Below, piece after piece: positions 30,402-35,993 of a stretch of 64,000 nt of DNA (position 1 is the first letter of the stretch; every line of letters starts with the position of its first letter). The notes beneath the pieces were generated by a model that worked only from the letters and a program-made list of their open reading frames with translations, was not told where the DNA came from and ran no database searches. Source of the stretch: Bacteroidota bacterium (lineage in GTDB: Bacteria > Bacteroidota > Bacteroidia > 2-12-FULL-35-15); contig SXIH01000001.1 in the NCBI GenBank assembly GCA_005772895.1, positions 62,001 through 126,000 of the forward strand, written 5' to 3'. Made by a program: the position numbers and the translations under genes.

Positions 30402-31454
30402 CTATTTTAAGCCGGCATTAATTTCCGCAAGCATTTCCGAACCCGGACAAAGAACTTCTTTTCCAAGTGTATTTAATGGAACATCTGTTGTTTGAATCAT
30501 ATAATGCAAATCATGTGCATCAGGATTTACATATAACAAGCCCGTTAAAATTTCGTTTTTTGCTTTTGCGTTCAATACCGCATTCATTGCTGACTGGCGG
30601 TTCAAAGGATCCCAATCTTCTGATAATTTGTGTAACTGAATAACCGAACCATCGTGCATCACAACCTCTTTGTGTGACCCTTTTCCATATTCTACACTTA
30701 TCTCTTTCATTTGAGGAACAAAATCTACCGTTGCTGTAGCTTCTACGTGCTGACGAACATAATCGTATGATTTTGTAGAACCCATATTATTATTGAATGT
30801 CACGCAAGGAGAAATTACATTGATAAATGCAAATCCAGGATGATTCATTGCTGCTTTAATTAATGGAACCAATTGTGACTTATCTCCTGAAAAACTTTGC
30901 GCTACAAACGTTGCTCCTAATTCAATGGCCAAACTTGCTAAATCAATTGATTCAAACAAGTTGACATTTCCGCTTTTGTTTTTTGAACCCTGGTCAGCAG
31001 TTGCAGAATCTTGTCCTTTTGTTAAACCATAACATCCATTATTCATAACAATGTAAGTCATGTTTAAACCTCTTCGGATTGCATGAACAAACTGTCCCAT
31101 TCCAATACTTGCTGTATCACCATCACCTGAAACTCCAAAATAAATCAAATCTTTATTTGCTAAGTTTGCACCTGTTGCTACAGAAGGCATTCTTCCGTGA
31201 ACTGAATTAAATCCGTGAGAGTTACTTAAAAAATATGCCGGTGTTTTTGAAGAACAACCAATTCCTGAAAGTTTTGCCAATTTATGAGGCTCAATGTTCA
31301 TTTCATAAGCAGCTTGGATAATTCCTGCTGAAATAGAATCGTGTCCGCAACCCGCACAAAGCGTTGACAGAGCACCTTCATAATAATCAACAGAATAACC
31401 TAGTTTATTCTTTGGCAATTCTGGGTGACGAAATTTTGGACGAACGTATGTCAT
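30402..31454 (-). CDS. korB: 2-oxoacid:ferredoxin oxidoreductase, beta subunit
   Basis: This 350-residue TPP-binding subunit has GDGDTASIGMGQ and NNGCYGLTKGQ for thiamine diphosphate and Mg. Cys residues in CAGCGH, GIGCSS and SPCVTFN provide the [4Fe-4S] cluster. With the gamma-alpha subunit it oxidatively decarboxylates a 2-oxoacid (probably 2-oxoglutarate) to acyl-CoA while reducing ferredoxin, and may run in reverse. It is the last gene of the operon, 40 bases after the inserted four-helix-bundle gene. A strong terminator follows. Assignment to 2-oxoglutarate rather than pyruvate is by family resemblance. Confidence 0.92.
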   Translation of the reverse strand: MTYVRPKFRHPELPKNKLGYSVDYYEGALSTLCAGCGHDSISAGIIQAAYEMNIEPHKLAKLSGIGCSSKTPAYFLSNSHGFNSVHGRMPSVATGANLANKDLIYFGVSGDGDTASIGMGQFVHAIRRGLNMTYIVMNNGCYGLTKGQDSATADQGSKNKSGNVNLFESIDLASLAIELGATFVAQSFSGDKSQLVPLIKAAMNHPGFAFINVISPCVTFNNNMGSTKSYDYVRQHVEATATVDFVPQMKEISVEYGKGSHKEVVMHDGSVIQLHKLSEDWDPLNRQSAMNAVLNAKAKNEILTGLLYVNPDAHDLHYMIQTTDVPLNTLGKEVLCPGSEMLAEINAGLK

Positions 31455-31494: not shown

Positions 31495-31881
31495 TTAGTT
31501 ATTAGTATTATACTCTACTTCATCTTCACGAACCACATTATTGGATTTTGAGGTGATAATAGCGCTTCTCAACATTTTTAGTAATTCATTTGCATCTTTA
31601 AATGCAACATTAAACTCTTCTTCCTTTATATATTTTGATTGACTTAATAACTCAAGCCAATATAATGTTTCATCACATTCCTTTTGAGAAATTGAAAGTT
31701 TATGAATAAAATCTGCCCTACTCTGAGCATTTTGAGCTTCTCTGATGTTGGCACCAATAGATGTCCCAGAGCGAAGCAACTGTTTGCTCATAACATATTC
31801 CTTCTTTTCTTCGACCAAACATTTGCTCAAACTCACAATCGTTAACGCAAACTGAAAACTTCTATCTTTTAGAACACCCAT
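31495..31881 (-). CDS. four-helix-bundle protein (23S rRNA intervening-protein / S23 family)
   Basis: This 128-residue all-helical protein has the family signature RSGTSIGANIREAQNAQSRADF, split here as RSGTSIGANIREAQ and SRADF, and DETLYWLELL. The family is encoded in 23S rRNA intervening sequences of some bacteria, is widespread in Bacteroidota, and includes the Avd accessory proteins of diversity-generating retroelements. No reverse transcriptase is present here. Molecular role is unknown. It interrupts the kor operon between alpha and beta, bordered by inverted repeats, and looks like a recent passenger. Confidence 0.85.
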   Translation of the reverse strand: MGVLKDRSFQFALTIVSLSKCLVEEKKEYVMSKQLLRSGTSIGANIREAQNAQSRADFIHKLSISQKECDETLYWLELLSQSKYIKEEEFNVAFKDANELLKMLRSAIITSKSNNVVREDEVEYNTNN

Positions 31882-31961: not shown

Positions 31962-34085
31962 TTATCTTTTCTTTTTAGCTGCTTTTTTATTGTTACTTTT
32001 TTTCGCTACAACTTTCTTTTTCGCAACAGCCTTCTTCTTTGATACTTTCTTAGGAGCAGTTTTCTTTTTAGCAACTACTTTCTTTACAACTTTCTTTTTT
32101 GCAGCAACCTTCTTTACAACCTTTTTCTTAGCTGCTATTTTCTTTTTCGGTGCAGCTTTCTTTTTGGGTGCAACTTTCTTCACAGCCTTTTTCTTAGCTA
32201 CTACTTTTTTCTTAGGAGCAATTTTTTTAGGCGCTGCTTTTGACGCTGCAGGTTTTACAGAAACTGCTTTTGCCGTTCCTTTTGCTGATAAATTTGTTTT
32301 GATTTGATTCAAAATTCTATCAGCCGTAATTGGCATACCATCATAGTTTAAAACTGAAATTAGTTTTTTAGGATCTGCATCCATTTCTATCATCAATAAA
32401 CTACGCATTTGAGCATCACGATTTTGTTCAATCACAAATACTTTATCGTGAGTATTGATAAAATCTACTACCTCTTTTGTAAAAGGAAACGATTTTAAAC
32501 GAATAGCATCCACAATAATTTTGTCTGCTTTTAAAATATCCATTGCTTCTTCAGCAGCATATTGAGATGTACCAAAAAATAAAATTCCTGTCTTAGATTC
32601 ATTCTTCTTCTGATATACTTGAGGAGCCGGAACCATTTTTTTTGCGGTATCCCACTTACGAACCAAACGATCCATGTTGCGCTGATATGCTCCACTATCT
32701 TCCGTATAAGTAGCATATTCATCACGAGAAGTTCCTCTTGTAAAAAACGAACCTTTAGTTGGATGTGTTGCCGGTATTGTACGATAAGTAATACCATCTT
32801 TATCCACATCTAAATAACGACCAAATTTTTCGATTTTTTCTAAGGCTGCTGCATCCAATACTTTTCCGCGCTTGTATTCTCGTTTATCGTCAAATGTTAA
32901 TTCGGGTGAAACGTGATCGTTCATACCTAAATCCAAATCTGTCATCACAATCACAGGGGTTTGTAATCCTTCTGATAAATCAAAAGCATCTAACATGCTA
33001 TCGAAACATTCTTTTGGAGTGGATGGAAACAATAAAACATGTTTTGTATCACCATGAGAAGCATAAGCCGCTTCCATAATATCTGATTGCTGTGTACGTG
33101 TTGGCATTCCTGTTGAAGGACCAGTTCGCTGAACATCTACCAACACAGTTGGAATTTCAGCAAAATAAGCAAGACCCAAAAATTCATTCATCAAGGAAAC
33201 ACCCGGACCGCTGGTTGCTGTAAACGAACGTGCACCATTCCAATTTGCACCAATCACCATTCCAATTGCAGCTAATTCATCTTCTGCCTGAACAATAGCA
33301 ACATTTCTTTTTCCTGTAATTTTATCTGTACGGAATTCATCTGAATAATCCATAAATGCTTCAACAACTGATGTAGATGGTGTGATTGGATACCATGCTG
33401 CAACTGTTGCTCCTGCATAAACTGCTCCTAATCCACAGGCTGCATTTCCTTCCATCATAATTTTTCCTTTTACAAGGTCTCTTCTTTCTACTCTGAATTC
33501 TAAAGGATATTTAAAATTAGCGTGAACATAATCTACTCCTAATTTTAAAGCTTTAACGTTTGCAGGAATTAATTTTTCTTTTCCTTTAAATTGCTCTGCT
33601 AATAATTCTTCCAAAACAGAAAATTCAATATTGAATAATGCTGCCAATGCACCAACGTAAATAATATTTTTAAATAATTGTCGCTGACGAGCATCAGTAT
33701 ATGCTTCATTACACATTTGCATTAAAGGAATTCCCAAGTAAGTAATGTCTTCACGAATATATTCTTTATGCAAAACCTTTGAACTATCGTACATAAAATA
33801 TCCGCCTGAGCGAACATCCTGAACATCTTTCAACATACTTTGAGGATTCACCGCTACCATCAAATCAATTCCCTCTCTTCTTCCTAAATATCCCTTTTCA
33901 TTTACACGCACTTCATACCATGTTGGTAATCCTTGAATGTTTGAAGGGAAAATATTTTTTGGTGTAACCGGAATTCCCATCCTGAAAATTGCCTTCGTAA
34001 ACAAAAAATTCGCACTCGCAGAACCTGTTCCATTTACGTTTGCAAATCTTATTACAAAATCATTTATTTTACTTTTTGTTGACAT
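31962..34085 (-). CDS. korA: 2-oxoacid:ferredoxin oxidoreductase, fused gamma-alpha subunit with histone-H1-like tail
   Basis: The protein has 707 residues. Residues 1 to about 190 form the gamma domain (FANVNGTGSASANFLF, PSNIQGLPTWYEVRV), and about 200-599 the alpha domain with WYPITPSTSVVEAF and TATSGPGVSLM. Residues 600-707 are a low-complexity tail of Lys, Ala, Val and Pro built from units such as AAPKKK and KKVVAKKK, like histone H1/Hc1 or AlgP tails, with more than half Lys. It is not part of the enzyme fold. It is in frame with a clean stop. Together with KorB it decarboxylates a 2-oxoacid. The tail might bind nucleic acid or polyphosphate, or act in complex assembly; this is inference. 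Confidence 0.92.
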   Translation of the reverse strand: MSTKSKINDFVIRFANVNGTGSASANFLFTKAIFRMGIPVTPKNIFPSNIQGLPTWYEVRVNEKGYLGRREGIDLMVAVNPQSMLKDVQDVRSGGYFMYDSSKVLHKEYIREDITYLGIPLMQMCNEAYTDARQRQLFKNIIYVGALAALFNIEFSVLEELLAEQFKGKEKLIPANVKALKLGVDYVHANFKYPLEFRVERRDLVKGKIMMEGNAACGLGAVYAGATVAAWYPITPSTSVVEAFMDYSDEFRTDKITGKRNVAIVQAEDELAAIGMVIGANWNGARSFTATSGPGVSLMNEFLGLAYFAEIPTVLVDVQRTGPSTGMPTRTQQSDIMEAAYASHGDTKHVLLFPSTPKECFDSMLDAFDLSEGLQTPVIVMTDLDLGMNDHVSPELTFDDKREYKRGKVLDAAALEKIEKFGRYLDVDKDGITYRTIPATHPTKGSFFTRGTSRDEYATYTEDSGAYQRNMDRLVRKWDTAKKMVPAPQVYQKKNESKTGILFFGTSQYAAEEAMDILKADKIIVDAIRLKSFPFTKEVVDFINTHDKVFVIEQNRDAQMRSLLMIEMDADPKKLISVLNYDGMPITADRILNQIKTNLSAKGTAKAVSVKPAASKAAPKKIAPKKKVVAKKKAVKKVAPKKKAAPKKKIAAKKKVVKKVAAKKKVVKKVVAKKKTAPKKVSKKKAVAKKKVVAKKSNNKKAAKKKR

Positions 34086-34156: not shown

Positions 34157-34192
34157 CATTTTCAAATTGACACATTTTCAAATTTTCAAATT
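34157..34192. repeat. tandem CATTTTCAAATT repeat
   Basis: Two exact copies of CATTTTCAAATT (34157-34168, 34173-34184) and a partial third (TTTTCAAATT, 34183-34192) precede and overlap the stop codon of the flavoprotein gene. On the coding strand this reads AATTTGAAAATG repeats. Confidence 0.5.
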
Positions 34193-35993
34193 ATTTATGT
34201 GAAGAACACCCCGAATGCGCCTTCGTTACATTGTAGAAAAACTTCTGCATGTCCCAAGCTGATGTAGGACAACGCTCAGCACACAATCCACAATGCAAAC
34301 AAACGTTCTCATCTTTCACCATCACACGCTTCGTTGGCAATACTCCTGAAACATATAAGTCTTGCGATTTATTTGTTGCAGGAACCTTTAACATGTTTCT
34401 TAAATCTGATTCATCATCTGCATTTTCAGTAAATGTGATACATGAGGTTGGACAAACATCCATACACGCATCGCACTCAATACACTTATCGGTTGCAAAA
34501 ACAGTTTGAATATCACAATTCAAACAACGCTCTGCTTCTTTAAATCCTGTGATTTTACTAAAACCTAATTCAACCTCTTTTTTTCTGTCGGCCAATGCTG
34601 CCTTTTTCTCTGCAAGAGGAACAACATATCTTTCATCAGTTACAACTACACTATCGTAAGCCCATTCGTGGATTCCCATTTTTTGTGAAACCAAATTCAC
34701 AAATGGCGAAGGACGAACAGTCATGCTTTCTCCTCGGCAAAATAAATCCATTGAAATAGCTGCTTGGTGTCCATGAGCTACAGCAGTAATTACGTTTTTT
34801 GGTCCCCAAGCTGCATCACCACCAAAGAAAACTTTTGGATTAGTAGAACAGAAAGTTATTTCATCCACTTTCGGCATATCCCATTTATCAAACTCAATTC
34901 CTAAATCGCGTTCAATCCAAGGAAAACTATTTTCTTGTCCTACTGCAATCAACACATCATCTGCTTCAATAAAAACATCATCTCCACCAACTGGAACTAA
35001 TTTTCTTTTTCCATCTTTATCGTATTCTGCTTTTACTTTTTCGAAAGTCATTCCTTTCAAAACTCCATTTTCTACAACAAATGTTTTAGGAACATGATTA
35101 TCAATGATAGGAATATCTTCATGCATCGCATCTTCTTTTTCCCAAGGAGAAGCTTTCATTTCAGCAAATGGAGAACGAACAACAACTTTTACATGCTCTC
35201 CACCCAATCTGCGTGAAGTACGACAACAATCCATTGCAGTGTTTCCACCACCTAATACAATTACCCTTTTACCAATTTTTGCTGTATGCTCAAAAGCAAC
35301 ATTAGCTAACCAATTGATCCCAATATGAATATTTTTTGCTCCTTCTTGTCGTCCTGGTATATCCAAATCACGACCTTTTGGCGCACCTGAACCAACAAAT
35401 ACAGCATCGTAATCTTTGCTCAAAGTTTCTTTTAAACTTTTTACATATTGATTAAAATGTGTGTGAATTCCTAAATCCAAAATATAATTTACTTCCTCAT
35501 TCAAAACTGCTTCAGGCAAACGGAAAGAAGGAATTTGACTTCTCATAAATCCACCACCCAATTTTTGTTCATCGTACAAATGGATTTCATAACCCAATGG
35601 AGCTAAATCACGAGCAACTGTTAAGGAAGCCGGACCAGCACCTATCAAAGCAACCTTTTTACCGTTTGGTTTGAAAGGACCTTGAGGCATTAATTTTTTT
35701 ACATCGCCCTTGTTATCTGCTGCAACACGCTTCAAACGACAAATTGCAACAGGCTCTTCTTCTTTTCCTTCAATACGGCCTCTTCGGCAAGCAGGCTCAC
35801 ATGGTCTATCGCAAGTACGACCCAAAACTCCAGGGAAAACGTTAGAATCCCAATTGATCATATATGCTTCTGTGTATTTTTCTTCAGCAATTAAACGGAT
35901 GTACTCCGGCACTGGAGTGTGTGCAGGACAAGCATGTTGACAATCTACTACTTTATGAAAATATTCTGGGTCGTTGATGTTTGTTGGTTCCAA
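34191..35993 (-). CDS. GltD-like NAD(P)-dependent flavoprotein with extra ferredoxin domains
   Basis: The protein has 600 residues. The N-terminal domain has CQHACPAHTP and CDRPCEPACRRG for two [4Fe-4S] clusters, as in GltD. The middle has FAD-binding VALIGAGPASLTVA (about residue 113) and NAD(P)-binding IVLGGGNTAMDCC. The C-terminus has CIECDACMDVCP and CLHCGLCAERCP, a 2x[4Fe-4S] ferredoxin. It heads the kor operon, so it likely passes electrons between ferredoxin and NAD(P)H. There is no gltB, so glutamate synthase activity is unlikely. Start is TTG at 35993: an in-frame stop lies two codons upstream, and the next ATG would remove the first cluster ligands. Confidence 0.88.
   Translation of the reverse strand: MEPTNINDPEYFHKVVDCQHACPAHTPVPEYIRLIAEEKYTEAYMINWDSNVFPGVLGRTCDRPCEPACRRGRIEGKEEEPVAICRLKRVAADNKGDVKKLMPQGPFKPNGKKVALIGAGPASLTVARDLAPLGYEIHLYDEQKLGGGFMRSQIPSFRLPEAVLNEEVNYILDLGIHTHFNQYVKSLKETLSKDYDAVFVGSGAPKGRDLDIPGRQEGAKNIHIGINWLANVAFEHTAKIGKRVIVLGGGNTAMDCCRTSRRLGGEHVKVVVRSPFAEMKASPWEKEDAMHEDIPIIDNHVPKTFVVENGVLKGMTFEKVKAEYDKDGKRKLVPVGGDDVFIEADDVLIAVGQENSFPWIERDLGIEFDKWDMPKVDEITFCSTNPKVFFGGDAAWGPKNVITAVAHGHQAAISMDLFCRGESMTVRPSPFVNLVSQKMGIHEWAYDSVVVTDERYVVPLAEKKAALADRKKEVELGFSKITGFKEAERCLNCDIQTVFATDKCIECDACMDVCPTSCITFTENADDESDLRNMLKVPATNKSQDLYVSGVLPTKRVMVKDENVCLHCGLCAERCPTSAWDMQKFFYNVTKAHSGCSSHK

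Follow-up and report, generated by a model that had tools for sequence, protein, structure and literature searches.

The KorA protein encoded in the window, by which the whole stretch of 64,000 nucleotides that was analysed is meant, ends in a long histone H1-like polycationic tail, and this tail is one case of an extension that recurs on unrelated proteins of the same genus. By analogy with published tails, our leading proposal, which we consider evenly balanced, is that the KorA tail is a disordered polycation and would hold the enzyme near nucleic acid by non-specific electrostatic attraction. The korA reading frame (31962-34085, minus strand) starts with ATG, encodes 707 residues, and closes with the stop codon at 31964-31962. 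Residues 1-599 (32289..34085, minus strand; core GC 35%) constitute the alpha subunit of a 2-oxoacid:acceptor oxidoreductase, and residues 600-707 (31965..32288, minus strand) form the Lys/Ala/Val/Pro tail. The original prediction, which placed such a tail in frame behind a complete enzyme domain, is borne out on both counts. TIGR03710 matches KorA over its full length (residues 9-595 on positions 1-561 of 561) at 574 bits, above the cut-off of 482.75, Pfam POR and POR_N are matched as well, and the best solved chain, 6n2n_A, covers residues 8-598. The solved 2-oxoacid:ferredoxin oxidoreductases (6n2n, 5b46-5b48) resemble KorA in the enzyme part, whereas the matched chains contain no counterpart of the tail. 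No equivalog model exceeded its cut-off to assign the substrate, and KorA is used here as the label given in the original prediction, not as evidence for 2-oxoglutarate.

The 107 residues from 601 to 707 comprise 48 Lys, 24 Ala, 17 Val, and 6 Pro with neither Asp nor Glu, and carry a net charge of +49; that of residues 1-600 is -5. The resemblance to H1 and AlgP that had been suggested therefore holds for composition. The tail is long, terminal, low-complexity, Lys/Ala/Pro-rich, and strongly positive, like the tails of AlgP, PhaF, and actinobacterial TopA. Two profiles touch it under their cut-offs, Pfam HC2 (PF07382; 21.3 versus 40 bits) and NCBIfam hist_H1_lk_Burk (NF038053; 23.7 versus 80 bits). 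KorA is the sole open frame of at least 80 residues in the window that reaches at least 12 Lys per 40 residues; of the 3,086 open frames scored in 53% of the genome, it is one of three with at least 20 Lys in 40 residues. Tandem Repeats Finder (TRF) detects imperfect periods of 18 and 30 bases in the tail, with 78-91% match. The tail is predicted to be intrinsically disordered; residues 601-707 show pLDDT of ~30 and no secondary structure in an AlphaFold model of low overall confidence (mean pLDDT 58.3, 18 sequences). We also note that AAG accounts for 19 of 48 Lys codons in the tail and 8 of 42 in the core (p 0.04), a difference of this one KorA that is not relied on. Avoidance of poly(A) runs was considered as a sign of selection and set aside (P 0.03 for this tail; 0.06, 0.20, and 0.90 for three other KorA tails; at least 0.13 for the adenylate kinase and RsfS tails).

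The neighbouring genes lie on the same strand. The beta subunit, KorB (30402..31454, minus strand; 350 residues, net charge -4), matches TPP_enzyme_C and PFO_beta_C over their cut-offs and scores 203 bits with TIGR02177, under the cut-off of 261.9. Upstream of korA is a GltD-like flavin reductase with a 4Fe-4S dicluster (34191..35993, minus strand; 600 residues, net charge -12; Pyr_redox_2, Fer4_20, and Fer4_7), whose gene adjoins korA in other loci too; from this neighbourhood, it is likely the electron partner of KorAB. Between korA and korB lies a gene for a four-helix bundle of the 23S rRNA-intervening-sequence type (31495..31881, minus strand; PF05635 at 101.7 bits, TIGR02436), separate from the KorA tail. 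A gene of this type is also present between korA and korB in L058 (5080-5451, plus strand) and directly after korA in L067 (4105-4440, plus strand), an untailed locus where the contig ends. The remaining loci compared gave no match to it, and korB there usually follows korA by 1-89 nt. The gene may be a repeated inserter at the korA-korB site.

The distribution of the tail was read from 59 KorA loci with at least 55% core identity; after removal of seven duplicates and three loci cut by contig ends, 49 distinct readable C-termini remained, counts that leave out weaker class-wide matches without locus sequence. A long Lys/Ala tail is present in five of them. Measured after core position 600, it has 107 residues in our KorA, 111 in G010 (L057; net +47), 115 in G016 (L055; +45), 124 in G035 (L056; +52), and 84 in L058 (+37), with 0 to 2 acidic residues in each. 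L042 has an extension of 51 residues, rich in Lys, Ser, and Asn and devoid of Ala, which was not counted as a tail. The other 43 proteins end at most 23 residues past core position 600, several of them in a few Lys (e.g., L009, PAAPKKKAPIAKKEKIK), which fits the earlier idea of a repeat expansion from a short C-terminal stretch. The tail probably grew from such a short Lys-rich C-terminus inside one gene lineage.

The enzyme evidently does well without the tail, since 44 of the 49 orthologues have none and some of these are 85-89% identical in the core; this counts against a tether. The closest untailed KorA, L031/L074, has 89% core identity, and L005 has 85%. Absence from close relatives and variability between strains had been named in the original prediction as reasons to abandon a role for the tail. 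These reasons apply in part, since the tail is missing from close relatives and its length ranges from 84 to 124 residues, whereas the charge has been kept. Within the genus, KorA (E 1e-100 or better) occurs in 13 of 36 genomes, one of them cut, and the tail in 4 of the 12 with a readable end. The KorAs of L031 (G168, f27) and L032 (G138, f30), which belong to other families, have 88-89% core identity and are thus as close as some from the same genus; together with the presence of KorA in only 13 of the 36 genomes, this hints at horizontal transfer of the operon. The order-level search yielded no genomes beyond these same 36.

A query with the tail alone missed the tail of adenylate kinase, and tails were therefore sought by reading genome stretches frame by frame. 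The scan of our genome covered 1.885 Mb (53%), in which 3,086 open frames reached the minimum of 80 residues, and applied a loose Lys/Ala filter followed by inspection. Ten frames passed the filter. Six have H1-like tails, and the other four are weaker Lys-rich frames of different make-up, so that at least six proteins with H1-like tails are encoded in the part read. The tail, noticed first on KorA, is not peculiar to it, and five further proteins carry similar tails: adenylate kinase (C-terminal extension of 146 residues, Lys-rich after ~25), topoisomerase I (TopA; C-terminal, last ~60 residues), RsfS (N-terminal, 91 residues), a VOC/3-dmu-9_3-mt protein (N-terminal, ~70 residues), and a START_2 (START-like) protein (N-terminal, more than 100 residues).

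The RsfS and adenylate kinase tails were followed through the genus. RsfS was matched in 32 of the 36 genomes, and all 30 loci read (L200-L229) have an N-terminal Lys/Ala extension of 56-109 residues with at least 24% Lys and a net charge of +16 or more; a putative role in rRNA binding is likely for it. The RsfS tail is more constant in the genus than those of KorA or adenylate kinase. Adenylate kinase was matched in 34 of the 36 genomes. An extension of at least 100 residues (up to 259) with 31-46% Lys is present in 17 of the 30 loci read, one of these being cut by a contig end, and the remaining 13 have no extension. In the class-wide draw, adenylate kinase was matched in 151 of 197 genomes; among the 143 genomes outside the genus, 10 from five families had a match past query residue 250. 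When 25 further loci from this draw were read, six showed a Lys-rich extension of 129-246 residues and 19 ended within 21 residues. We do not claim that, across the genus, a tail on KorA goes with one on adenylate kinase (adenylate kinase tailed in 4 of 4 KorA-tailed versus 2 of 8 untailed genomes, p 0.06); the genomes are related, and two of the eight (G012 and G029) were judged by frame length only.

In the core DNA tree, the four tailed KorAs of the genus share a fork (84/96), which lies within a group of eight (100/99) together with L058 and the untailed L031, L032, and L005; the core protein tree does not resolve the inside of this group. All five tailed KorAs formed one side of a branch in 0 of 200 bootstrap trees, and their grouping was not rejected (p-AU 0.229). 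One or two origins of the tail both fit the trees, and a single origin is not claimed. Identity among the four same-genus tails is 0.52-0.67 compared with 0.40-0.49 for shuffled residues (z 1.8 to 5.2), which points to some remaining positional homology. No positional homology was detected between the L058 tail and the other KorA tails (z -0.2 to 1.4). At the DNA level, most pairs of tails barely exceed the similarity of synonymously shuffled ones, and the cores of the four same-genus KorAs differ by synonymous distances of 0.80-1.10. Neutral simulation from our tail, which presumes that the tail was already present in the common ancestor, yields, after 0.25 substitutions per site, a mean of 4.5 stops and a net charge of +26; after 0.5, the means are 6.8 stops and +16. 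Comparison of this decay with the charges of +37 to +52 indicates that charge and frame were kept while the sequence turned over. The retention is due to selection or to renewed expansion, and the data do not separate the two. The dN/dS of the tail was not used; pS of 0.69-0.81 looks saturated, probably from repeats aligned out of register.

A reading with a real, if minor, share of the probability is that the tails are functionless. Slippage, unequal crossing-over, and capture of small palindromes would lengthen permissive protein ends, which stay open only since frameshifts and stray hydrophobic ends are mildly harmful. The patchy presence of the tail on KorA, its variable length, its imperfect tandem repeats, and the near-complete turnover of its DNA all agree with such tolerated expansion, as do the in-frame palindromic elements seen in some tails. 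The element AAACCTGCCCGTCCG-NNN-GGCGGG, or a close variant, is read as KPARPxGGK within some Lys tails; it occurs, with a CCTGCCCGTCCGGCAGGCGGG core, in the KorA of G035 (L004) and the adenylate kinase of G033 (L186), and twice in our START-like tail (L255:9520 and 9631). Similar palindromes exist elsewhere in our genome, the listed sites including L085:11104 and L087:10586. In G016, KGS/KGQ motifs are present in all three tails read (L003, L172, and L204) and are written by CCCCGAAGGGG in L172 and L204, as though a single family of repeats had spread into the tails of this genome. Repetitive palindromes within coding regions have been described, and the coding palindromes of Rickettsia resemble the KPARPxGGK element (PMC3733652). 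No such element was seen in our KorA tail, which has the imperfect 18- and 30-base repeats instead. Against a lack of function stand the near absence of acidic residues from the KorA tails despite synonymous distances of 0.8 and more, and the retention of the RsfS tail in every locus read. Expansion alone would also leave the Lys/Ala/Val make-up on six unrelated proteins unexplained.

Gene conversion between tails was considered as well and is not claimed. When the DNA of a genome's KorA tail is compared with that of its adenylate kinase tail, the similarity exceeds that of synonymous-codon shuffles in G016 (81 versus 58±9) and G035 (171 versus 124±16) and is not raised in our genome (G000; 120 versus 106±11) and G010 (93 versus 81±10). 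A pair from different genomes can be stronger, e.g., G010 KorA with G035 adenylate kinase (120 versus 80±9).

The tethering of KorA to nucleic acid is suggested by the DNA binding of published tails of the same make-up and by the recurrence of the tail on six proteins, two of which, TopA and RsfS, belong to families that work on DNA or the ribosome. The constancy of the RsfS tail in the genus, the charge that KorA tails keep in comparison with the neutral simulation, and the predicted lack of structure are also in its favour. The other four carriers are not known to be connected with nucleic acid, which speaks against it, as do the lack of positional homology in the L058 tail and the possibility of repeated fresh expansion. 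The tail would raise the time that the KorAB complex spends on nucleic acid, be it the nucleoid or ribosomal RNA, and would play no part in catalysis; its mode of action may be like that of the AlgP, PhaF, or actinobacterial TopA tails. A more tentative extension, which we regard as rather improbable, is that the tail is an interchangeable localisation tag in the genus. Proteins that serve translation, DNA topology, the adenylate balance, and the oxidation of 2-oxoacids would thereby be drawn to one polyanionic phase of nucleoid and ribosomes, making the metabolic enzymes part-time chromatin proteins, and tails would be gained and lost per enzyme within the genus, growing by repeat expansion and in-frame palindrome capture.

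The H1-type Lys/Ala tail as such is already known on bacterial DNA-binding proteins. The KPAA tails of AlgP in P. aeruginosa and PhaF in P. putida are described as serving DNA binding and cargo placement (PMC9239181, PMC3574117). These proteins, like KorA, have a long Lys/Ala/Pro tail on another domain, disordered in their case and predicted to be so in KorA; in contrast, they are dedicated structural proteins of granules with KPAA repeats, whereas in KorA a KKK/VVA-like tail follows a complete enzyme. In actinobacterial TopA, lysine repeats hold the enzyme on DNA, and such repeats recur on HupS/HupB, Ku, and HrdB (PMC7398561). H1-like Lys repeats thus end several proteins per genome there, as they do in our genome, TopA included. 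The carriers named there are DNA-binding proteins of GC-rich genomes, in contrast to the AT-rich genome studied here, where metabolic adenylate kinase and KorA are also tailed. Type IA topoisomerases commonly end in a C-terminal stretch of positive charge (PMC9369019), so the tail of our TopA is ordinary. Chlamydial Hc2 and related H1-like proteins vary in size by repeat number (PMC2848022), and Hc2 shares this variation and its composition with the KorA tail. However, Hc2-type proteins are free-standing nucleoid proteins, and the KorA tail stays below the HC2 cut-off.

An unlikely alternative to tethering on nucleic acid is the docking of the tail on an acidic partner, such as ferredoxin or the GltD-like reductase, which would speed electron transfer or hold the complex together. 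The natural partners are acidic or neutral, as the net charges of the GltD-like protein and KorB indicate, and ferredoxins are usually acidic. Whether or not the KorA of a locus is tailed, the ends and charges of KorB and the GltD-like protein show no clear difference, an argument against a partner-specific role, and the same type of tail is found on proteins without such a partner.

Still less probable is an association with polyphosphate, in which the tail would bring KorA to polyphosphate granules; AlgP of Pseudomonas, which has an H1-like tail, binds such granules (PMC9239181). PPK1 is present in 31 of the 36 genus genomes, the tailed G010, G016, and G035 among them. It is equally common in untailed genomes and therefore does not discriminate, and neither PPK1 nor PPK2 is matched in our own assembly (93% complete), owing to loss or a draft gap. 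A PASK motif comprises 20 residues with at least 75% Asp/Glu/Ser/Lys and one Lys (PMC12345225). The KorA tail reaches at most 12 of 20 compared with the 15 needed, and five other KorA extensions, including L042, score 11 to 13 of 20; binding of the AlgP type needs no PASK motif.

We give very little weight to a product-sensitive switch, in which succinyl-CoA or acetyl-CoA from the enzyme would acylate the tail lysines, lower their charge, and couple placement to flux. CoA thioesters do acylate lysines and are made by the 2-oxoacid oxidoreductase family, the sole point in its favour. The tailed RsfS, TopA, and adenylate kinase make no such product, and the substrate assignment of KorAB is not established. 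An error of assembly or sequencing in a low-complexity repeat, a concern of the original prediction that the draft state of our genome (71 contigs) and the imperfect repeats might have sustained, can be dismissed together with chance read-through, since four separately assembled genomes (JAHEYB, CAMCUO, CANNHN, and JANYIQ) have an in-frame tail from the same KorA residue, followed by korB, and the repeats are only 78-91% alike.

Should the tether to nucleic acid hold, a counterpart in idea would be eukaryotic. The mitochondrial nucleoids of yeast contain TCA-cycle enzymes, e.g., alpha-ketoglutarate dehydrogenase and aconitase, and share with the proposal for KorA the notion that a metabolic enzyme may belong to the nucleoid; theirs is an organelle, and to our knowledge no H1-like tail is involved. 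The top matches of an open-licence literature search contained no report of an H1-like tail on a 2-oxoacid oxidoreductase or adenylate kinase, nor of such tails spread over proteins of metabolism and of information processing within a single Bacteroidota genus. Tailed and tail-less forms of adenylate kinase and KorA in close relatives are a natural experiment with matched enzymes. With these pairs, one can ask if a plain polycation moves a metabolic enzyme onto nucleic acid, and if such a move alters metabolism. A tail of this kind was also noticed outside the family: a DksA/TraR zinc-finger protein in another family (G038; L124:6542-7570) has a long Lys/Ala/Pro N-terminal tail, which passes the Pfam HC2 cut-off (44.1 versus 40).
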